DNA of 64,000 nt, taken from NCBI GenBank assembly GCA_016187935.1, contig JACPIU010000018.1, forward strand, positions 1 through 64,000, written 5' to 3'. A program made the translations under genes and the position numbers. The stretch comes from Bdellovibrio sp. (GTDB lineage: Bacteria; Bdellovibrionota; Bacteriovoracia; Bacteriovoracales; Bacteriovoracaceae). Numbering within the stretch: the first letter of the stretch is position 1; each line of letters begins with the position of its first letter. Below the pieces are notes generated by a model that was given only the letters and a program-made list of their open reading frames with translations, did no database searches and was not told where the DNA came from. This document shows, piece by piece, positions 29,977-48,859 of this stretch.

Positions 29977-31011
29977 ATGCCAAGGAAAAGGTCGGCCTCA
30001 CTGGCCTTGCTTGTTTTGTTTTTTACTTTTGCTTCATCTATTGCGCACGCTCGACATTTCGCCAGAGTCAACATTCCCGGGGCCCGTTGTGGCAATGGTT
30101 CACCTTATAGTGTCTGGTTGGATATCAAGCAGACTCATAAACTCATGATTGAGTTTATGGGCGGAGGGGCCTGTTGGAGCGCTCAGACCTGCTATGGTGC
30201 CAAGCTTCGCACTTGGATGTTTCCCATTCCCACCGTTCCTGTGGTGAGTTGGATAAGTAATGACGGTGGCCCGGAAAACACCCATGGCCTCATGGCCGAT
30301 GCCAGTATGATTTACTTTCCCTACTGCACAGGCGATGTGCATGCCGGTCAACATGAGGCCGATTATGGATTGGTAAAGGCCCACCATACCGGATACCGTA
30401 ATGTGATTCGGGCCTTACAGTATTTAAATGATACTGGGCTGGTGAGCTTTTCTTCTTTTAAACAGGTGGTGCTCTATGGTGCCAGTGCCGGGGCAATCGG
30501 TTCACTTCTACATGCACCTAACGTGGAAAAATTCTTGGCCCCTTCGGCAGCTAAAATTATTCTGGCCGATGCTCCTGGAATGCATTTTGGCGAGACCTTT
30601 TGGAATAAGTTTTCCGATGAGCTGGTTAACGATTACAAGAAGGCCTTCGCTACAGTGGGAATTTATTTCACTCACCAGGATACCGTGATGGCGCGATATC
30701 TTCCATCCGTGGCCCAAGTCTTGAAATCATGGAATGTAGGTATCTTGCAAGGTGCTCGTGATATTGTGATGAGTGTTGTGTTTGGAAATATCTCACCCAA
30801 CGGACATCGTGAACTGGTCTATGGTCCCAAAGGTCTGTTTGAAATGAGTGTCAACACTCCCAATATTTCGGTATGGTTACCCGATACGCTTCAGCACACT
30901 TTTCTTTTGGCGGGTGTGACTGGAACGATCGATGCAGATGGTGTAAGTGGAATAGAATTCGCAAAGAAAATTTTAGCGCGCGATTCTCAAGTCAGGGTGC
31001 GAACTTGGTAA
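29977..31011 (+). CDS. Secreted pectin-acetylesterase/Notum-like serine hydrolase
   Basis: A 344-aa alpha/beta hydrolase with a signal peptide (cut near AHAR). Family motifs are clear: GGGACWSAQTC (oxyanion region), PYCTGDVHAG and the nucleophile elbow GASAGAIGS with Ser170; a His in LQHTFLLAG may complete the triad. Members remove acyl groups from polysaccharides or lipidated proteins; the natural substrate here is unknown. An upstream AGGATAGGAG gives a good ribosome site. A terminator follows at 31040. Confidence 0.82.
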   Translation: MPRKRSASLALLVLFFTFASSIAHARHFARVNIPGARCGNGSPYSVWLDIKQTHKLMIEFMGGGACWSAQTCYGAKLRTWMFPIPTVPVVSWISNDGGPENTHGLMADASMIYFPYCTGDVHAGQHEADYGLVKAHHTGYRNVIRALQYLNDTGLVSFSSFKQVVLYGASAGAIGSLLHAPNVEKFLAPSAAKIILADAPGMHFGETFWNKFSDELVNDYKKAFATVGIYFTHQDTVMARYLPSVAQVLKSWNVGILQGARDIVMSVVFGNISPNGHRELVYGPKGLFEMSVNTPNISVWLPDTLQHTFLLAGVTGTIDADGVSGIEFAKKILARDSQVRVRTW

Positions 31012-36457: not shown

Positions 36458-38473
36458 CTAAAGTTTGAATTTCTTTTTAAGTCCTTTGAGTACGGCTTTG
36501 CCTTTGTCTTCTGCGCCACCTGTGTTGGACTTAACTTTATCGTCCAGAGCGGCTTGGGCCTTATTTTTGGCCGCTTCAATGTCCTTCTCTCTTTCTCCCA
36601 CAAGACTGTCAAGCTTGCTCTTGATCTTGGCATATTTTTCTTCGATCATTTTGCGCTTCGGACCAATTTTAGCATCCAGTTTTTTCTTGAGTTGCTCTTT
36701 CGCCGCGGCCACGCGTTCGTTCAGTTCACGTTTTAATCCGCTGGCCAATTCGTCGCCTAAGTTCGAGCTAAAGTCCCAGCTCAGTGAGGCCCACGTTCCG
36801 CGAGCGGTGGCGTCTAAGGTTATCAGAGGAATACCCCTTAGAAGCGAGGACAGAATTTCGGTCACTTTTTTATTCTGGGACTCGACCAAGTACTCCACCT
36901 CACGGAAGCGGTTATTCATGGACATGAGAATCATTTCCTCGCTGTGTTTGAGGTTTACGTTCATCACGCCCTTGGCCTTGGCAATGCCAAATTTTAATTT
37001 TTTACTTTTGGATAAAACGTGTTGGTCGATCGGATAATTTCCAACTGAGAGGGACACTTCTTCACCGGGAGTCGGCAAGTGATGGTTGAGAGAAGCGGTG
37101 AAATTTACGTCATAAATTTTGGCCCCTGGAAAATTCCCTCCCACTGTCAAAATCATGGGTTTTCCAACCACTTGCGGGTCAGTCGTGAAGTTCGTTCCTT
37201 GGCCTTTCAGGTTTCCTTGTGTTCCACCTTGAACATCCTTGGGGGCTTCCGAGCTGATTTCAATATTTTTGAGCCATACCAGAGGGTAAGCTCCTTTTTT
37301 GGGGAAGCGATAATCAACACCACTGGCCCTGGGGCGGGGCTTCGGTTTGGCCAATTCATCCTTGGCCTTCTCGGCCGCGGTTTTCTTAGGCGGGAGATAT
37401 TCCCTTGCCATATCCAGATATTTTTTTGAACTGCCCAATTTTGCCAGAACAAAAGGACCGAACAATCCTTGCGCAAGATTTTTTGTATCCAGAGAGGGAA
37501 TTTTGAAACGGGTCTGAAGATTCTTCAGATCTTGCTCGATCAGATCATCAATTTTCTTAAAAGAAGATTCCAGCATCTTAACGCTGGAAGAGATTTCTTT
37601 TCCGCCCTCCTTGACTGTTTTGACTGTCAGGGTGAGTTTATTGAAATCATCTTTGAAGTCTTTTAGTTGTTTGGCCGCTTGGAGGGGATTGCTATCAAGC
37701 TTAGTTTCCTTTATCTTTTGCGCTGTTTGCTCGAATTCATCCTTTGTAGGCAAAGCTTTGATTTTTTCTTCCCACATTTTTTGTTTGGTGGTCAGCTCTT
37801 GTTCCAGACTTTCAATAAACTTTTCAGATTCAAGAGTATCACGAATCTCTTCCAGTTGAGCTTTGGTGTCTCCACCCTCTAAGATGGCGGCAAGGTCACC
37901 CAAAGCATTTCCCTTGAATTCTTTTTGCGCTTCTTCCAGGGCCACCGATTTTGCCTCACCCGCTAGCTTGCCGGCCGCCGAGGGTTTGTTGTCTTCAGGT
38001 TTTTCAGGTTCGACAGGCAGAACTTTTCCAGGAGATTTTCGGGGAGACTGCCAAGAAATTCCTTTTATGGCAAAATTGTCGATAACAAATTTACCGCGCA
38101 GGAGCCCATCCCATAAAAGTTTGGCGGCGATAGTTTTAATTTCCAAAATATTTGTGGAGGGGTTTTCCTTATCGGTCACTTGAAGACCGGTTAGTTCAAA
38201 ACCTCCACCTAAAAAACTGGAATGAAAATCGGCAACATCCACTTGCGCACCATTAATTTTAGTGCCGGCGAATTCCATGGCCCAACGGAGATTGGCATCA
38301 AATAAAAATTTGAAATATAAAAAAGTACCAAGTCCAATAATAAGCAGAGGCACCACCACTCCCGTGCGAATGGGGCCGGGTGGGCGTTTCACCTTTTGAA
38401 CTTTTTTGGGTTCACTATCCGGCATCGGGGGAACTTCGGGGGGAGTATTAGTAGAGTCGGTCATATTTTTCAT
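36458..38473 (-). CDS. TIGR03545-family protein, membrane-anchored
   Basis: A 671-aa protein: a Pro-rich cytoplasmic tail, one TM helix (residues ~38-56), an AsmA-like segment (AGTKINGAQVDVADF, LELTGLQV type), a long coiled-coil/charged middle (residues ~165-340), a beta-rich part and a Lys/Glu-rich helical C terminus. It matches TIGR03545, an uncharacterised family of outer-membrane bacteria, and overlaps the TIGR03546 gene by 26 bases. An envelope lipid-transfer role has been guessed for AsmA-like proteins; here that is inference. Confidence 0.75.
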   Translation of the reverse strand: MKNMTDSTNTPPEVPPMPDSEPKKVQKVKRPPGPIRTGVVVPLLIIGLGTFLYFKFLFDANLRWAMEFAGTKINGAQVDVADFHSSFLGGGFELTGLQVTDKENPSTNILEIKTIAAKLLWDGLLRGKFVIDNFAIKGISWQSPRKSPGKVLPVEPEKPEDNKPSAAGKLAGEAKSVALEEAQKEFKGNALGDLAAILEGGDTKAQLEEIRDTLESEKFIESLEQELTTKQKMWEEKIKALPTKDEFEQTAQKIKETKLDSNPLQAAKQLKDFKDDFNKLTLTVKTVKEGGKEISSSVKMLESSFKKIDDLIEQDLKNLQTRFKIPSLDTKNLAQGLFGPFVLAKLGSSKKYLDMAREYLPPKKTAAEKAKDELAKPKPRPRASGVDYRFPKKGAYPLVWLKNIEISSEAPKDVQGGTQGNLKGQGTNFTTDPQVVGKPMILTVGGNFPGAKIYDVNFTASLNHHLPTPGEEVSLSVGNYPIDQHVLSKSKKLKFGIAKAKGVMNVNLKHSEEMILMSMNNRFREVEYLVESQNKKVTEILSSLLRGIPLITLDATARGTWASLSWDFSSNLGDELASGLKRELNERVAAAKEQLKKKLDAKIGPKRKMIEEKYAKIKSKLDSLVGEREKDIEAAKNKAQAALDDKVKSNTGGAEDKGKAVLKGLKKKFKL

Positions 38474-38969
38474 ACCATTGAAAGAGGGAAGTGGCCTTTA
38501 AGGCCTTCCACAGTTTGGTGTCTTTAATTTTTGCCACGATTAATTCGCGATATTTTAGGACCAGCATGCGGGTCAATAAGAAAACCAAAGGGAAGAGGAG
38601 AATGGAGAGCACCCCGGAACCCATAACCACCGAGTTGTAAAACTTGGTGAAGGGAACGATCGGCAGATTATAGGCCCAGGTCAGCGTCGAATGGAGACTG
38701 TCCATATCTAAAATGACCCGCCCAAAACGATCGAACAAGGGATCAAAAAGCCAGGCAATGAATTTAAAGAAAAAGGCCGAGAGGCCTGCCGCCCCAAACT
38801 GCACGCGGAAAAAAAGTGCCAAGAGTAAAACCAGAATTGTTTGTAAGGAGAAACCAGGTGCCATTCCCAAGATAAACCCCAGGGCGACTCCAGCGGCGAT
38901 TTGATTGGTTCCTGTTTCTGAATTGAGCAACTTGATAAACGCGAAAATCTGTTTCAGCATCAGTGTCAT
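38448..38969 (-). CDS. TIGR03546-family (DUF2062-like) membrane protein
   Basis: A 173-aa protein with three or four TM helices: QIAAGVALGFILGMAPGFSLQT then GPxGLS-like AAGLSAFFFKFIAWLFDP. It resembles DUF2062-type proteins and the TIGR03546 family, which occurs beside TIGR03545. AAAGG precedes the ATG. It is the first gene of the pair, with its own promoter. Function unknown. Confidence 0.75.
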   Translation of the reverse strand: MTLMLKQIFAFIKLLNSETGTNQIAAGVALGFILGMAPGFSLQTILVLLLALFFRVQFGAAGLSAFFFKFIAWLFDPLFDRFGRVILDMDSLHSTLTWAYNLPIVPFTKFYNSVVMGSGVLSILLFPLVFLLTRMLVLKYRELIVAKIKDTKLWKALKATSLFQWYEKYDRLY

Positions 38970-39043: not shown

Positions 39044-42000
39044 TCACTCAAGTTTAAATGATTTGATTCCCCAAACGTCGCCGTTATATTTGCACAAGAA
39101 GAGCAGCTGATGGGCCTGGCCTTGTATGCTAACCGGGTTCATGGCCTTGCAGTTATCGGGCACCAAAAAAGAGTATTTGGCGGGAACGAAGGCCTGGTCG
39201 TTGTGCACTTCTAAGATGTAGGCGCGATTTCCGTTTATTTGAGTGTTGTCGATAAAAAGGGCAGGTCGAAGACCGCTTTCGCCTTTCGAAATGATGGGAA
39301 AGAAGAGGTCATTTAAAAGTTTGCCCGGAAGGAAACTAAAACGTGCAATGGGATAGTCAAAAGCGGTGCGATCGATATTGACCAGGTCGGAGGGGCCTCG
39401 AACTTCCGTTTTGATTTTTTCATCCAAAAAGAGCAAACGTGATTTTGTCTGGAAGATTGAAATCATGGAAGATGAACTGTCTTGATGATAGGCTCCCACA
39501 AAACCGAGAATATGATCTGTGGCCCTGGGATAGTTATAGTAACCACCACCAGTGCTGGTGATTGTTTGGATGGCGTTGAGATTGGTGCGTAAAAGGGCGG
39601 TGGTTTTGACCGAGGTCAGGCCTTGGTAACCCACAAAGAAATCCGCCCCGCCACGGGTGGCGCGCTCAGGCGAGAGGCGAGTCGCGGCGTAATGCAAATC
39701 GAGTTCCACTCGACGGCCTTGCAGATTCATCTTTTCCACTTTCGGTTCACCCAACGAAGTGTAGGTCAGAACATAATCATCGCGTAAATAACCTTTACCT
39801 ACGGACAGAAGAATGCGTGCCTCACCGCGTTTGTAGGCGGCACGGTCCGACACTAGTGGAGCGATGACCGCGATTTGGTCATTCCACTTGATTTTGAAAT
39901 CCTTGCGAAATTTTTCATAAAAGGCGGGTGGGTCCAATAACTTGGTCGCCAGTGTGATCACGCCATTTTTCTCTTCCGGGACCAAGACGTATAGGCGCAC
40001 ATAAAGCGAGCGATCAGGGGAGCGGAAAGCACTTTTCTTTTGATAGATCTCGGGCAAGCGACCGACTTCTAAAAAAGCGCGCGTGGCAACCTGTGTTCCG
40101 CCGGGAAGTGGGGCGGGCACAAAAAAGACCTTGTCGGAATTCAAGGCCACAGTGTCGGGGGTATAGCGCCAGTGACTTTTTCCAGGAAAGAGTTCGTGCA
40201 ATTCAAAATCAAAATAACTAAATTGTAGAAATTCTTTGTCTGTGGCCTCTTTCCCCGTTTTGGCCACCGTGGTGATTTCTAAGTCGGGCCGGCCATCATA
40301 ATTGGTGTCGGTAATGGTGAGTGCCAGCGGTCGCGTGGCACCCAGAATAAAAAGTGATTCTGTCCGTTCGCTTAACTTCCCATCCTTCAGATCAAAGAAA
40401 AAGTAGCGCACGCCAAAGTTCGGCCCCTCATTTTCAATTCGCGCCAACGAGTAGAAGGGGTGGGGAAGAAGTTGATAGGGATCACTGACACTCATCATAT
40501 TGGGATAAAGAATCCCGCCTCGAATGTCCGCCAGACGATGCTTTTCGTCTTTGAGAAGAACTTCCGCGTGGGCGATTTGTTCGTCGTCTTTAAAAACACG
40601 TACCAACGGCAGAATATGGTTGAAGCTTTTTTCCGCCATGCCTTCGGCACTGATGGAGACTTGAATAGGAATCTGGTGGTCGCCTTCGAGCGATTCGAGC
40701 GTTCCGTTCATGCGCAGAAGAGCACTCTCGCTTTGAGGCATTTCGGCAATTTCAAAAATATTTTTTTCCAGGTTTAAATTGCTGGGTAAGGAAATCTGCA
40801 CGCGAATATTTTTTGCCAGTAACCAATAGTTTTTGATTCTGAGATCAATAAAGAATTTTTTATCCTTTGCCTGGAATGGGATGTGCGCGAGTTCTTTAAA
40901 AACGGGAGCAAGAAGCGGTGCCGGTGTCGCCTCCAGACTCTTCTCAATGTTGAGTGTGCCAAAAAGTGTCGGACGTGGTCGTTTCAACGGTGCTATCGCA
41001 TCAACCACCGGATTGGTTCCTGCCATCAAACGTGCTTTAAGTTCATCCAGCGTTATTTCAGGTAAAACGGCCTTGAGAATGGCCGAGGCACCTGACACCA
41101 AAGGAGCGGCTTGGCTCGTGCCATTTTTAACCTCATATCCCGTGAGAGAAAAGTTGAGCGGGAAAAAATTGGTGGGATAGGTGCTTAGGATGTGATCTCC
41201 CGGGGCCACAAGATCAACGTGCCCGCCATAATTGGAAAAAGAGGCAAGCTGGCCATCGATTTGGGTGGCACCAACGCACAAGACGTGGTGATAAGCACAA
41301 GGGAAAATGGGTGAAGAGGTATTATTATTACCGGCAGCGGCAACCACCACGATTCCTTGATTAATCGCTTCCATAAAGGCCTGGTGCAGATATTGAGTAT
41401 CTATACTGCGTGGCCATCCCAAACTTAAGTTGATGACATTGGCCTTCATTTTAATGGCATAAAGAAGTCCACGCGCCAGACGATCGGTCATAGAGGTTGC
41501 TGCCTGATTCTGCTCGTCCGCGGCACCCATAACTTTGATGGGTAGAATTTTTACTTGTGGGAAAATGCCGTAAATACCCTGGGTGTTGGCCTTGGCGGCA
41601 ATCAGACCCGCCACATGGGTGCCGTGTCCGGTGTCGTCGAGAGGAAAACGCGCCTCCTTGGAGGCCTTATGCGCCATAAAGTTCCAGCCCATGCAGTCAC
41701 CATGAAGAGAGTTATTATCATTATCGGCGACTTCTGCTTCCGTGCCCTCCGCCATAATCCCACCCTCAGGCGCACATTCTGTTTCGTTGCGTTTGATTTG
41801 CCCCTTCAAGTCAGGGTGATTGAAATCGATACCGGAATCTATGACGGCGACAATCACTTCGCGTTTGAGCCGTGGCGCTAATGTGCCGGCGATATTTTTG
41901 ATGCCAATATCGACGTGGCTACCCGCCGCCAATGTATTGTAATTGATATCATCAATATCCATAGTAACCTGCGGGCCGCTACCGATAACCGGCCACTGGT

Positions 42001-42337
42001 AAGTCAGTAAAGGATCGGTCGAAATGTCTTGAGCGGGGCGATTCGGTGAGGGAATAATACCTTGGGCCTCGATAGGATAGACGCCTTCGGCCTTATTAAT
42101 TTGGAGATTGCTTATACTTTGCAATTGGGTTTTTATCGTGCTGAGTTTGGCTTCGGCACGGTAGAGGCGTTGAAAGTAATCGCTGGGATAATCGCTGAAT
42201 TGCTCCAATGAAGTTTGGCGTATCTCTTCGGTCGTGAGGGGGCGAGAAAGTTCTATGACCCACACTTCTGCCATGGCCTTGCCGATGAAAAGCAGGGACA
42301 AAATGATGAGGACAAAAAGCTCTATCCGTCTACTCAT
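39044..42337 (-). CDS. Large secreted subtilisin-like (S8) serine protease
   Basis: A 1,097-aa secreted protease with the complete catalytic set: Asp167 in VIDSGID, His238 in GHGTHVAG, Asn337 in AAGNNN and Ser408 in NGTSQAAP. A ~140-residue N-terminal part precedes the catalytic domain and could be a propeptide; it contains WVIELSRPL at 26-34. About 650 residues follow the catalytic domain, with beta-rich segments and an FG-GAP-like pattern (TDTNYDGRPDLEI). The ATG at 42337 has GGGGAG upstream and overlaps the stop of the 1,020-aa gene by ATGA, so the two are translationally coupled. Confidence 0.88.
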   Translation of the reverse strand: MSRRIELFVLIILSLLFIGKAMAEVWVIELSRPLTTEEIRQTSLEQFSDYPSDYFQRLYRAEAKLSTIKTQLQSISNLQINKAEGVYPIEAQGIIPSPNRPAQDISTDPLLTYQWPVIGSGPQVTMDIDDINYNTLAAGSHVDIGIKNIAGTLAPRLKREVIVAVIDSGIDFNHPDLKGQIKRNETECAPEGGIMAEGTEAEVADNDNNSLHGDCMGWNFMAHKASKEARFPLDDTGHGTHVAGLIAAKANTQGIYGIFPQVKILPIKVMGAADEQNQAATSMTDRLARGLLYAIKMKANVINLSLGWPRSIDTQYLHQAFMEAINQGIVVVAAAGNNNTSSPIFPCAYHHVLCVGATQIDGQLASFSNYGGHVDLVAPGDHILSTYPTNFFPLNFSLTGYEVKNGTSQAAPLVSGASAILKAVLPEITLDELKARLMAGTNPVVDAIAPLKRPRPTLFGTLNIEKSLEATPAPLLAPVFKELAHIPFQAKDKKFFIDLRIKNYWLLAKNIRVQISLPSNLNLEKNIFEIAEMPQSESALLRMNGTLESLEGDHQIPIQVSISAEGMAEKSFNHILPLVRVFKDDEQIAHAEVLLKDEKHRLADIRGGILYPNMMSVSDPYQLLPHPFYSLARIENEGPNFGVRYFFFDLKDGKLSERTESLFILGATRPLALTITDTNYDGRPDLEITTVAKTGKEATDKEFLQFSYFDFELHELFPGKSHWRYTPDTVALNSDKVFFVPAPLPGGTQVATRAFLEVGRLPEIYQKKSAFRSPDRSLYVRLYVLVPEEKNGVITLATKLLDPPAFYEKFRKDFKIKWNDQIAVIAPLVSDRAAYKRGEARILLSVGKGYLRDDYVLTYTSLGEPKVEKMNLQGRRVELDLHYAATRLSPERATRGGADFFVGYQGLTSVKTTALLRTNLNAIQTITSTGGGYYNYPRATDHILGFVGAYHQDSSSSMISIFQTKSRLLFLDEKIKTEVRGPSDLVNIDRTAFDYPIARFSFLPGKLLNDLFFPIISKGESGLRPALFIDNTQINGNRAYILEVHNDQAFVPAKYSFLVPDNCKAMNPVSIQGQAHQLLFLCKYNGDVWGIKSFKLE

Positions 42338-45300
42338 ATGAGTCTCCCCATTAACCAACTTAAGAAAAACTCGCCTTCGCTCATGCCTGTTAAGCGTTGA
42401 ATGCGGGTCAACGGCCCACCCATATCTTCCTCTCCGAATTCTCCCAGTGAGTTAGAAAGGTAAGGTGAATCGCCATTTTCATCGCCGACTCGAAAGCCTT
42501 CCAATTTGGAGTAGACATAAAGGTTTTCATCGCCACCGACCAATTTTGTGATGCCTTGAAGATTCAATTTATCTTCGGCCAGGATGAGTGCCCGAGTGGC
42601 GGCGTTGGCCATGCCGCTTAAAGATTTCTTTTCGCGTGCTTTGTGGTATTTTTTCTGAAGTGTGAGAAAGCGTCGCACGCCTGATAATAACCAGCGTTTT
42701 TTATTCTGGTTTTTATCAAAGATAGAACGAATATCTTTTTCCGCCAGATTAAACATATTCTGGATGCCATCGGCATAGACGAGGAAGTTGACGTTGATGT
42801 TATAGAGATACAACTTGTCCGCTTCGTTGAGAACGGTCTTGGGATAAAAGCTGAACTGATAACGTTGTTTGACTTCCTCCAAAAGCTTGAGGGCCTTTTT
42901 TCGACTGGCGGAAAAGCCATTCCAAATGCGCGAGACTTTGAGGAAAGGTTTTTCCAGACCTGCCTCCGTGACCTCGCCTTCAAAGGTGGAAATGATATTC
43001 TCGGCCTTCCCAAAATAGTTATTGCCGGCATTTCCTTCACTAATGGCGGGCGGCACATAATCGCCTTTTAAGAAAATCGCCGGGAGTGCTGCTAAGGCCT
43101 CAGTGGCGGCGCCGACCGGATCAGTTCCGAAGGTGCGGCCGCGGTACTTGCGGTAAAGGTTAATGGATTCTCCTTCGGGATGTGTGACAGTGAAACGATT
43201 GCTGGAGTTGATGCGGTCGTAGCGCCAAATGAGAAATCCCAGACTTTGGCGGCCTTCGGTGAAATTATATTTGAGCTTATAAGGCCGCTCAATCTTTTCA
43301 ATGCGCTCAAGGGAATTATGGAAAAAGACATGTCGAAGCGCTCCCAAGGTTTTAATGATGTCGGGATTTTCCTTGTCGATATTGACGGCAATAAATTTAC
43401 TGCGGGCCATGCCCAAGGTCGTGCGCATCTGTGCCTTGAGCACGGGGACGCCGGCGCGGAAGACAATTCCTAGCCCGAGCTGATGGAGATTGCCAAAATC
43501 GCGATAGAGATGAACGATGTTTTCACTCTTCCTTTGAATGTGCAGGCGACTGATCACTATTTCATTGGCGTTGACGGAGGCACCGACGGCAAGAAGGCGC
43601 AGATAATTGACACCCACATTGGCGCCTATACCGGCGGAAATTGAATCAGTGATAATGATGGATTCACCCACTTCCATATTTTCCGTGAAGAGCTTCAGCG
43701 CCTCGCTCACGCGTTTTTGTTTTTCTTCCGCCGCCAATTGATTCAAGTCAACGTTAACCAGATTATCAAAGGCGTGTCCGTACTTGCGCTTCAACAGGGG
43801 AACCAGGATATTTTTAAAGGGATACTTGAGGGCGCGTTTGATGCTGGTAATGGGGCGAATATGGGCGTAGGTGCGGGACAAGTTGGCCTGGGCCGTGGCG
43901 CCGACAGTAAGCGGGGTGGGAATTCCGTCAAAACCGATATAAGCTCCACCTGATACGGAAACGCCAATGGTATCAACGAGCTGAATTCGATTGTTCGTGC
44001 CGAGATAAGTTCCAGCGACGACTTTCCTGCCGAGAATGAATTGCCCGCGCACCATGGGAAAAACATAAGCGCCAAAGTCGCGAGTGCTTGGTTCGCCCAA
44101 AGTCACGTTTTGCGCCAAGGCCTGAGCAGCAAGCTGCTCTTCGCGCGCCATCAATTGAGAATCCAGGTTGGTTCCCAAATAGGGAATGGAGTTTAAAGCG
44201 GTGGTGGCCGCCAGGAGTCCATTGGATACACCTTCTGATAATACAAAAGAAGTCACTTCACTGGCCGATAACGGATTTTCCGGATCACCGAAAGAAAATC
44301 GCCCGGCATAACCAGGCCAGAATTCCTGTTTTAATTCACCCTCGATGAGTTCCGTGCCATTGCTGATATGGGGATTGAATTCCAGTTCATCGCCATCCAT
44401 GCGCAATAATTTGCCCATGGAATTGCGGCGAGAGAACAACTTTTCTTTCACCAGCATGGCCACTGATGAGGGGAAGGCCGCGGCTTCGACGATTTCCTCC
44501 CAATCCGCACGCGTTAAACGCAGGATACGATTGGTGATCCACTTGGCGTCTTCATAAGTGCAATCAAAATTGGCGGCGTCATCATAGGGCAACATGACGT
44601 TGTTGGAAATAATTCTTCCTGCAGACCAATCAAAGAGGTTGACGCTTTCAGGAATTTCCACCAAAGAGTAGGGAATCAAAAGCGAGCGAAATGTGCGTCG
44701 GCCTTGGGGGACTTCGGGCGGCATGAACCCAATGCTCAGGTTATACATGGAGCCATGGTCATCAATCGCCAACATATCTTGCAAAGTTAAAATAGTGGGA
44801 TCTGCATCTCGGGTAATCCAGCGATCGGTAGAACCAAAAGTCGATTCCCCTAATTGAGTGATAAAAAGTTTTTTCTCGTTTTCACTCTTGAAACGCAATT
44901 GTATTTTCTTTAAGTGCTTGATGGCGGGCACTTGATATCCCAATTTGTATAAAAGGGCCTGACGTAAGAGAACATTATGGGCCCGCTTGGAGGCGAGTAA
45001 GGTGAAAAGACGACCTTCTCCCGTACTGACAGTTTTTTGAATGGTGAAACGAAAATTGCCAGCGCGAGAGAGAAGGGGAGATAAATATTGAACTTCATCG
45101 TAGTAATCAATATCAACTTTCGCCAGATCGGCAGATTTGAGCGGACGTGCAAGTTCATTTTTCCAGATCCCTGAAGGTACCGGATCGAGCACGGAATGAT
45201 CGAAATCTCCCGACTGCTGCTGGTAGAGGAGATGCAACTCTTCGGGAGAAATCGGTTTCCCCTGATAGAGCAAATCGTTCGACGGACGATCCATGTATGA

Positions 45301-45396
45301 AAGAGGAATCATCCCCGGTAAAGGGTTCGCCCCGAAACTGTGTAAACTCAGAAGAAATAATAGCAGCGGAAATAAAAATTTTATTTTATGCGCCAA
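42334..45396 (-). CDS. 1,020-aa secreted protein of unknown function, partner of the S8 protease
   Basis: The start is a TTG at 45396: it follows AAAGGGGGA at a proper distance and gives a typical signal peptide (cut near FGAN); the longer frame does not. No known domain is seen. Residues 78-86 read WKNELARPL, mirroring WVIELSRPL in the S8 protease, and a comparable Tyr/Asp-rich stretch follows. The middle (about 500-650) has Gly-rich alternating segments (SISAGIGANVGVNYL) that may form beta strands; the C terminus is helical and charged. Coupling to the protease implies joint function: substrate, chaperone or surface partner. This is inference. Confidence 0.7.
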   Translation of the reverse strand: MAHKIKFLFPLLLFLLSLHSFGANPLPGMIPLSYMDRPSNDLLYQGKPISPEELHLLYQQQSGDFDHSVLDPVPSGIWKNELARPLKSADLAKVDIDYYDEVQYLSPLLSRAGNFRFTIQKTVSTGEGRLFTLLASKRAHNVLLRQALLYKLGYQVPAIKHLKKIQLRFKSENEKKLFITQLGESTFGSTDRWITRDADPTILTLQDMLAIDDHGSMYNLSIGFMPPEVPQGRRTFRSLLIPYSLVEIPESVNLFDWSAGRIISNNVMLPYDDAANFDCTYEDAKWITNRILRLTRADWEEIVEAAAFPSSVAMLVKEKLFSRRNSMGKLLRMDGDELEFNPHISNGTELIEGELKQEFWPGYAGRFSFGDPENPLSASEVTSFVLSEGVSNGLLAATTALNSIPYLGTNLDSQLMAREEQLAAQALAQNVTLGEPSTRDFGAYVFPMVRGQFILGRKVVAGTYLGTNNRIQLVDTIGVSVSGGAYIGFDGIPTPLTVGATAQANLSRTYAHIRPITSIKRALKYPFKNILVPLLKRKYGHAFDNLVNVDLNQLAAEEKQKRVSEALKLFTENMEVGESIIITDSISAGIGANVGVNYLRLLAVGASVNANEIVISRLHIQRKSENIVHLYRDFGNLHQLGLGIVFRAGVPVLKAQMRTTLGMARSKFIAVNIDKENPDIIKTLGALRHVFFHNSLERIEKIERPYKLKYNFTEGRQSLGFLIWRYDRINSSNRFTVTHPEGESINLYRKYRGRTFGTDPVGAATEALAALPAIFLKGDYVPPAISEGNAGNNYFGKAENIISTFEGEVTEAGLEKPFLKVSRIWNGFSASRKKALKLLEEVKQRYQFSFYPKTVLNEADKLYLYNINVNFLVYADGIQNMFNLAEKDIRSIFDKNQNKKRWLLSGVRRFLTLQKKYHKAREKKSLSGMANAATRALILAEDKLNLQGITKLVGGDENLYVYSKLEGFRVGDENGDSPYLSNSLGEFGEEDMGGPLTRIQRLTGMSEGEFFLSWLMGRLI

Positions 45397-46848: not shown

Positions 46849-48795
46849 TTAGAAACGTCCTCCAAGAGTAAAGAAGAGCGAGTGATTTTGTACATTTTCA
46901 AAAGACTGTTGGCCCTTGACGCCCAAATTGAGATGGTCGCCTAAAATATTTTGATTTACTTGTAGTGTTCCGGTGTGTTCGGAGCCTGGTACCCAAAGGG
47001 GCAGGTCGCGGCTTAAGGCACCTTCGGTGCGAACGGCCACTGAAGTTCCCGTGCGGCGTGAGTCAAGGCCGGCCTCGGTCACGTATTGCCAATAGTCGTC
47101 CGTGCCCAGGTCGCGGTAGGCCAGTCCCACCGCCAGCGAACCATGGACATCTCGGCCTAAATTGCCATCGATTTTGTGCATCCAAAGAGCGGTGGGAGTG
47201 CGCAGAGCGATTCCTTTGCTGGAATCCAAGGCGTTGGCCTGATCGACGTAGGATTGGAGGGTTAAAGTGGAAGTGTGGTGAACGGGCCCGGTATAAAATT
47301 CAGTTCCGACACCATAACGGGCGCTGACGTTATAGTCCGTAACGTGATCACTTTCCGATCCTAAAGTTGTATAGGCATAACTTCCGCGCAGTGAAAGTTC
47401 CCCAAAACCAAAGAGACGAAAACGATCACGCTGGTAAATGTTGATGTTGGCCCCTTGAGTGGTTTGGGCGTAGACGCCTATGGCATTCATTTGACCAGCT
47501 TCGGTGGGGCGTTCAGACTGGAAGCCTGCCAGACCGTATTCTCCGTAGAAAATTTCATTGTAATTCACTCGAATATTGTAGGCGGCACCGACCACTTGCT
47601 CGCCATTGCCCTGAGCTGCATTGGCGACAAAAATTCTAAATGTACCATAGGGCGTGTTGAGACCGCCTTGAGTGACAGTATTATTTGAGTGGAGCATGAG
47701 ATCGAGTTGTTGGTCGGAACCTCCCGTGACCAAATTTAAAATGGTGCCACGATCCGAGGGGAGAATAATGGCCGGTCGTCCGTTGGCATCATAAATTCTA
47801 AAACGGATGCCGGCATCGGGAAGTGAGCCATTTTGCGAGAGTGCCGAAGGGCCGCTGACAGTTTGCTCGGTGATACTGCCATAGTTGAGTTGGTAAACGC
47901 GTCCGCGGTTCTTGGGATCGGTGAGGACGAGAGTCCTGTGTCCGCCGCCCACCAAACGAAAACCAACCGTGAAGGCCTCATCAATTCCCATGGCACGGGC
48001 CAACTGAGCGGCCCCTTGATGCATGTCACGGCAGACACCTGCATTTATTTGTGTTCCTGTGGCGAGATTGCTGTTGATGGCGGACAACATAGTTTTCAGC
48101 GAGACCGAACCTTCACTGGCGGGGCCGCTGCCTGTGCGGTCATTGTCATAATTATCGCTGAAGGAGGCAAGAAAAGTGGCGATCAGGCCAACCTTGCGTC
48201 CGAAACTCATTCCTTTTGATTGCTCCGCAATCATGCTGAGAATGGCGGATTCAGAATCGAGGGCACTGGCACGAATGATCAGAAGGGCATTGTCAATGGC
48301 ATCGGTTTTGGCCTGTCCTTCAAGACCGTCAGTACCATTGGCCAGCACGACTTTGAGTTGGTCATCGCTCATGGCCAGAATTTGGGCCCGAGTCATGCCA
48401 GTTGAGTTGGCATAGTTGGCAATGACACTGGTGACATTGATTCGTCCGATGGGAGTCGAGGCAATGGCCATTTTCCCATCATTGCCGACTGCTAAAAATT
48501 GCAAATCAAAAAATAGTTCAACTTTTTTCTTCTTTTTGGCGGCCTCGGCAAAGGCCTGATCTTCCGCCGCGGTGGAATCGGTATTGGGGCAATTTTTCTT
48601 GGCCACTCCAGGAGCGGCAGCAGCATTCACATTGGCGGCAGCTGCGCTGACAACCGCTGGGTCATTGGGGACCAGGGCGGCGGCCGCCTTTGAAGCCTCG
48701 GCGGCCAGCTTGTCTGTCGCTGCTGCGTGCGAAGCTATGGTCTGAGTGCTGATGAGAATGGCAGCTAAAATGGTTGACCAAAATGCTCCATTCAT
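46849..48795 (-). CDS. Transglutaminase-like domain fused to a C-terminal beta-barrel
   Basis: A 648-aa exported protein (cut near SHAA). After an Ala-rich linker (25-65) comes a helical part, then a Cys-His-Asp arrangement of transglutaminase/cysteine-protease type: GVCRDMHQGAAQLARAMGI (Cys255), GGGHRTLVLTDP (His286, Asp293). From ~420 to the end, alternating aromatic strands finish in GGRF, a terminal Phe as in outer-membrane barrels. So an enzyme-like domain may be displayed on an outer-membrane anchor. GGAGG precedes the ATG at 48795. Neither half has been identified beyond fold-level hints. Confidence 0.62.
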   Translation of the reverse strand: MNGAFWSTILAAILISTQTIASHAAATDKLAAEASKAAAALVPNDPAVVSAAAANVNAAAAPGVAKKNCPNTDSTAAEDQAFAEAAKKKKKVELFFDLQFLAVGNDGKMAIASTPIGRINVTSVIANYANSTGMTRAQILAMSDDQLKVVLANGTDGLEGQAKTDAIDNALLIIRASALDSESAILSMIAEQSKGMSFGRKVGLIATFLASFSDNYDNDRTGSGPASEGSVSLKTMLSAINSNLATGTQINAGVCRDMHQGAAQLARAMGIDEAFTVGFRLVGGGHRTLVLTDPKNRGRVYQLNYGSITEQTVSGPSALSQNGSLPDAGIRFRIYDANGRPAIILPSDRGTILNLVTGGSDQQLDLMLHSNNTVTQGGLNTPYGTFRIFVANAAQGNGEQVVGAAYNIRVNYNEIFYGEYGLAGFQSERPTEAGQMNAIGVYAQTTQGANINIYQRDRFRLFGFGELSLRGSYAYTTLGSESDHVTDYNVSARYGVGTEFYTGPVHHTSTLTLQSYVDQANALDSSKGIALRTPTALWMHKIDGNLGRDVHGSLAVGLAYRDLGTDDYWQYVTEAGLDSRRTGTSVAVRTEGALSRDLPLWVPGSEHTGTLQVNQNILGDHLNLGVKGQQSFENVQNHSLFFTLGGRF

Positions 48796-48859
48796 GGGGC
48801 CTCCAAAAAAAACAATAATAGATATTGCTTTGAAGTGCATTTTTGATGCCATTATTGCA

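Follow-up and report, generated by a model that had tools for sequence, protein, structure and literature searches.

The window analysed here is a 64,000-nucleotide stretch of contig JACPIU010000018.1 of a Bdellovibrio sp. (assembly GCA_016187935.1), in which a gene encoding a subtilase of peptidase family S8 and a gene encoding a second large protein, here called the partner, are joined by an ATGA overlap. Both gene products are of secreted type, and the partner is predicted to form an outer-membrane beta-barrel. The partner and the protease make up a well-supported conserved unit in the Bdellovibrionota, and the pair is linked to and co-occurs with a third family consisting of lipoproteins that share a C-terminal domain. 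The conserved pair and the co-occurring lipoproteins suggest a machine for export or processing at the cell surface that has not been described before, and no description of the three-part unit was found in the open-access papers searched. The phylum Bdellovibrionota is noted for its predators of other bacteria, and the surface machinery used by Bdellovibrio-type bacteria for attack, digestion and exit from prey is largely unassigned. A three-component set that about half of the phylum's sampled genomes possess, complete Bdellovibrio-family genomes among them, and whose partner belongs to no Pfam family is a compact and testable candidate for surface building or remodelling in these bacteria.

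Conservation and distribution of the gene pair

A total of 118 distinct partner loci were collected, 109 of which had enough flanking sequence for their neighbours to be judged. At 103 of these 109 loci the partner had a subtilase gene as its same-strand neighbour, in most cases with an overlap; the subtilase was directly downstream of the partner at 101 and directly upstream at two. With starts taken from the longest open reading frames, 99 of the 101 downstream subtilases overlapped the partner or lay no more than 30 nt away. A preliminary description of this DNA, made from the letters alone, had proposed an undescribed protease-partner system with genes coupled by ATGA; the overlap is present (42334-42337), the proposal agrees with the loci above, and orthologous proteases with no adjoining partner, which would have spoken against it, were looked for and not found. 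The same ATGA overlap joins a second partner-protease pair in the window genome (contig C48).

Six partner loci had no directly adjacent subtilase. The protease lay about 700 nt from the partner at L179; none adjoined the partner at L052, L053 and L100, with a full-length protease on another contig in two of these genomes; and L082 and L083 both belong to the group of orphan relatives treated below. Reversed order, with the protease before the partner, was observed at L055 (2989-9931) and L130 (2048-10029), and because both proteins of the pair start with a lipobox-like sequence there, these pairs may be lipid-anchored.

Partner and protease have diverged together. Their patristic distances over 90 pairs correlated with r = 0.92, to which shared species history contributes part, against a permutation maximum of 0.14. 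The exchange of any of six within-genome paralogue pairs reduced the tree correlation, and the paralogues thus travel together. Presence and absence of the two genes were likewise associated (phi 0.90, 291 genomes), genomes without the partner being almost always without a full-length protease. The partner profile matched 172 of the 291 sampled genomes of Bdellovibrionota, and the named relatives all came from this phylum (Bacteriovoracaceae, Halobacteriovorax, Bdellovibrionales and Oligoflexia) except for two vaguely titled metagenome-assembled genomes. The partner was contained in complete single-contig genomes of family f6, such as G081, where the protease was also adjacent. One complete single-contig genome of this family (G041, 2.7 Mb) lacked both the partner and the lipoprotein family, though they are present in other genomes of its genus.

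Architecture of the two proteins

The pair and its domains are located in the window as follows (aa, amino acids).

39044..42337 (-): subtilase (S8) gene, 1097 aa; has Asp167, His238, Asn337 and Ser408, which do not vary among 58 orthologues
42334..45396 (-): partner gene, 1020 aa; signal peptide, putatively kinase-derived N-terminal domain without the catalytic segment, predicted beta-barrel of outer-membrane type with about 14 strands, and 50-aa tail
42029..42268 (-): degenerate segment of the protease resembling a prodomain (residues 24-103), containing WVIELSRPL
40922..42028 (-): subtilisin catalytic domain of the protease (residues 104-472); deseasin MCP-01 matched at Z 43.8
40595..40882 (-): Ig-like beta-sandwich of the protease (residues 486-581)
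39047..40573 (-): C-terminal region of the protease (residues 589-1097), all-beta and probably folded as a beta-propeller; invariant Cys1063/Cys1082
44407..45315 (-): N-terminal domain of the partner (residues 28-330), a homologue of the kinase-like domain found in the orphan relatives, without the D.K..NNK / HDxG segment
42487..44073 (-): part of the partner predicted to form a transmembrane beta-barrel of 14 strands (residues 442-970); VIA-align Z 13.5 to CymA and 11.6 to OmpG

The partner starts with TTG, preceded by AAAGGGGGA. Its AlphaFold2 model, built from 65 sequences, had a predicted local distance difference test (pLDDT) score of 87 and a predicted template modelling score of 0.82, and showed a mixed domain at the N-terminus as well as 14 antiparallel strands of considerable length. 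The barrel also aligned, at a weak score, to the NalP autotransporter barrel (VIA-align Z 9.7), and a Foldseek search with the whole partner gave no match below E 0.001 and only scattered barrels, with RagAB and SusC barrels among the weak matches. Most strands showed the hydrophobic/polar alternation of an inside and an outside face: 13 of 14 had a 9-mer contrast of at least 2.3, while the soluble strands of the C-terminal region of the protease reached at most 2.2. The signal peptide, the closed antiparallel barrel of the model and the alternation support, rather than prove, the view that the partner is an outer-membrane beta-barrel protein. The partner had no Pfam or NCBIfam family above cut-off (24 members were scanned against Pfam at E up to 0.1) and no sequence relative in the PDB search. 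A RAP domain (PF08373) was considered and rejected as sub-threshold, the best of its matches in 7 of the 24 members being 2.9e-4 and that on the window partner scoring 15.7 bits against a gathering cut-off of 24.2.

The protease belongs to peptidase family S8, as had been stated in the preliminary description, with a Pfam match at E 1.6e-49, the intact catalytic triad, the oxyanion Asn and a subtilisin fold. Its AlphaFold2 model (pLDDT 88) consisted of the prodomain-like segment, the catalytic domain, which aligned to deseasin MCP-01 from residue 102, the Ig-like sandwich and the long all-beta C-terminal region. Residues 24-103 have the position of a prodomain and, in the model, its beta-alpha-alpha-beta-alpha-beta topology; Inhibitor_I9 (PF05922) matched one of seven prodomains at E 0.16, below cut-off. 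The length preceding the catalytic Asp was bimodal among the 69 scorable proteases, 32 having a prodomain and 37 having none. Bd2269, a known prey-exit subtilase (PMC12546842), could not be equated with the window protease.

A third family: C-terminally related lipoproteins

The genes around the 103 pairs were clustered, and one family, the lipoproteins, recurred in different lineages, upstream as well as downstream of the pair; the remaining recurrent neighbours formed a ribosomal/replication cluster limited to some 20 related loci. Lipoproteins of the family range from about 190 to 430 aa and have in common a C-terminal domain of about 140 aa; a lipobox was found in 88 of 98 members, and a Gly/Ser-rich tether after the lipidated Cys in 72. 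Within the flanking sequence retrieved, 80 of the 103 pairs had a lipoprotein gene, mostly on the same strand, and no orphan barrel had one beside it. Five unlinked members are encoded in the window genome, two of them with Gly-Tyr-Asp-rich repeats.

Among the 291 genomes, all three families were present in 153, none in 116 and a mixture in 22. In the family to which the window belongs, 78 genomes had protease and lipoprotein, none had the protease alone, four had the lipoprotein alone and 15 had neither.

Contig C8 of the window genome carries tandem lipoproteins of about 495 aa (L208, 4363-5838 and 5851-7338), which consist mostly of Gly-Tyr-Asp-rich repeats, end in the C-terminal domain of the family and have Yae1_N-like matches in relatives. 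They are possible surface fibres.

Orphan relatives and the origin of the N-terminal domain

Weak partner matches led to the loci L082, L083 and L188-L195, which have no S8 neighbour and whose proteins align to the paired partners across both the N-terminal domain and the barrel. These orphans show the motifs K..G.E..sE, D.K..NNK and HDxG.sfG. Of 12 orphan relatives, nine matched the D.K..NNK plus HDxG pattern and two more missed it by just one letter; it was present in none of 103 paired partners, whose hidden Markov model (HMM) alignments skip this block. By the same pattern match, the catalytic Asp/Asn and the metal Asp of protein-kinase-like enzymes were found in none of the 103 S8-paired partners. 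Three orphan loci (L191, L194 and L195) lie in DUF4956-HlyD-VTC neighbourhoods, the usual context of CotH kinases (PMC7112168), of which L202 is a canonical example. At the orphan loci there was no match to the Pfam CotH HMM (PF08757) and no kinase in the PDB profile search; CotH identity was therefore dropped, and "kinase-like" and "dead kinase" refer here to motifs and gene neighbourhood.

We infer from these motifs and from the gene neighbourhood that the N-terminal domain of the paired partner had a kinase-like ancestor, whose catalytic segment it no longer contains. One branch of a kinase-like barrel family would then have lost its catalytic segment and become tied to a protease. The orphans at L191 (2058-5510 and 5703-9143), L194 (3611-7558) and L195 (5089-7557) have an apparently intact kinase-like signature and are candidate barrel-fused secreted kinases.

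Comparison with known systems

Slam proteins consist of a periplasmic domain and a 14-stranded barrel, and lipoprotein genes adjoin about 52% of their loci (PMC5449769); the known cargo of Slam/type XI systems has a conserved C-terminal domain (PMC8406197). The set described here is alike in its periplasmic N-terminal domain and predicted 14-stranded barrel, its neighbouring lipoprotein genes and the C-terminal domain of the putative cargo. It differs in the seemingly kinase-derived N-terminal domain and in the constant subtilase companion, and membership of the partner in the Slam family (DUF560) fails, since none of the 24 scanned members had a DUF560 or TPR match. In the type 9 secretion system, PorU and PorV, a surface protease and an outer-membrane barrel, handle clients with a conserved C-terminal domain, an arrangement that the proposed unit would share, although the protease here is S8 and not C25.

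NalP of Neisseria is an S8 autotransporter lipoprotein, a surface subtilase that releases lipoproteins (PMC5472700). The window protease resembles it as a secreted subtilase; however, NalP carries its own barrel, whereas here the barrel and the protease come from different genes, the latter with Ig-like and propeller-like domains. In the KLIKK proteases of Tannerella, a secreted protease gene is likewise adjoined by a lipoprotein gene, but no barrel partner has been reported and the lipoproteins are mutually dissimilar (PMC4404884). The resemblance to CotH kinases lies in the neighbourhoods of L191, L194 and L195, while the relatives are distinguished by the lack of a CotH HMM match and by fusion to a barrel, and the paired partner by its missing catalytic segment.

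Proposed function and alternative explanations

As a possible reading, which we put forward tentatively, the lipoproteins are exported or displayed by the barrel and are then substrates for trimming or release by the subtilase, the whole acting as one dedicated outer-membrane unit. The N-terminal domain of the partner would recognise the C-terminal domain of the lipoprotein, the barrel would move the lipoprotein to the surface or display it there, the subtilase would trim or release it, and the Ig-like and probable beta-propeller domains of the protease would serve docking. Movement of lipoproteins to the surface by the partner is suggested by their linkage and co-occurrence and by analogy with Slam and NalP; a physical complex, the outward direction of transport and the role of the lipoproteins as clients would be parts of the same reading. 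Rather doubtful is the wider proposition of a phylum-specific export and processing system of Bdellovibrionota that combines a pseudokinase-derived barrel translocon, a propeller subtilase and multi-copy, C-terminally tagged surface lipoproteins and is evolutionarily unrelated to Slam, autotransporters and type 9 secretion. Several points weigh against export and trimming of lipoproteins by the pair: the partner has no sequence similarity to Slam in the Pfam scan of 24 members at E up to 0.1; neither pair in the window's own genus has an adjoining lipoprotein gene; the three-family co-occurrence is partly clade-driven, though it holds within the window's family too; and the lipoproteins could instead be inhibitors or a separate subunit.

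The set might alternatively serve nutrition, with the surface subtilase cutting prey proteins, the barrel importing the peptides and the lipoprotein acting as a lid or binding subunit, as in RagAB/SusCD. The weak Foldseek matches to RagAB and SusC, the predatory, protein-digesting lifestyle and the retention of an active triad in all lineages fit such a machine, but the barrel has about 14 strands instead of 22, no TonB-dependent-receptor or plug family appeared in the Pfam scan, and the lipoproteins are often small, have tethers rich in Gly or Gly-Tyr-Asp and occur in several unlinked copies; we consider it unlikely. Distinctly unlikely, in our estimation, is that the lipoproteins restrain the subtilase, as cognate inhibitors or as prodomains in trans, while the barrel only anchors the protease. 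In favour of this, roughly half of the proteases come without a prodomain, and small lipoproteins precede the secreted KLIKK proteases (PMC4404884); against this, lipoprotein copies far outnumber proteases in some genomes (five versus two in the window genome; as many as 11 lipoprotein copies in G257), and proteases bearing a prodomain are accompanied by lipoproteins as well. The tight barrel-then-protease coupling and the structural match to the NalP barrel would also agree with a two-partner arrangement in which the barrel exports the protease itself and the lipoproteins are incidental. Such an arrangement is very unlikely, as no POTRA domain was detected in the Pfam scan and the three-way co-occurrence would be left unexplained.

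The WxxELxRPL motif

The preliminary description had further noted two similar segments, which are located exactly at the residues claimed.

42236..42262 (-): WVIELSRPL, protease residues 26-34
45139..45165 (-): WKNELARPL, partner residues 78-86

The common N-terminal domain that was read into them did not hold up. Profile-profile alignment of 28 protease prodomains with 65 partner N-termini by hhalign gave a probability of 0.2% (E 0.28), compared with 99.7% in a split-half control of the prodomains, and homology of protease residues 24-103 with partner residues 22-140 was thus not found by this method. The six identities in nine residues are the best 9-mer match between the whole protease and the whole partner, a level that 98 of 100 shuffled whole-protein pairs also attained; in shuffles of the N-terminal regions alone it was attained in 9 of 300 (3%), which makes the match only locally unusual and is what can be said for a homologous module. 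In a set of 121 partner and 104 protease sequences from which duplicates had not been removed, the motif was confined to the window's genus except for one partner (L111), which has WKNELSRPL and whose protease has no such segment. The prodomain segment is missing from about half of the protease orthologues, beside which the partner is still kept. The shared-module explanation is rejected as hardly credible because the hhalign result, the shuffles and the taxonomic range speak against it, and on these sequence comparisons the resemblance is a chance one.

Other genes in the window

Directly downstream of the protease are a DUF2062 gene (38448-38969, minus strand) and, overlapping it, a gene for a 671-aa coiled-coil protein with one transmembrane segment (36458-38473, minus strand); both also adjoin the pair in another genome of this genus (L044). 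A 667-aa secreted Ala-rich protein with no Pfam match is encoded at 46849-48852 (minus strand, like the pair), upstream of the two genes. A pectinacetylesterase-like secreted protein (PF03283, E 2.7e-14) is encoded at 29977-31011 on the plus strand.

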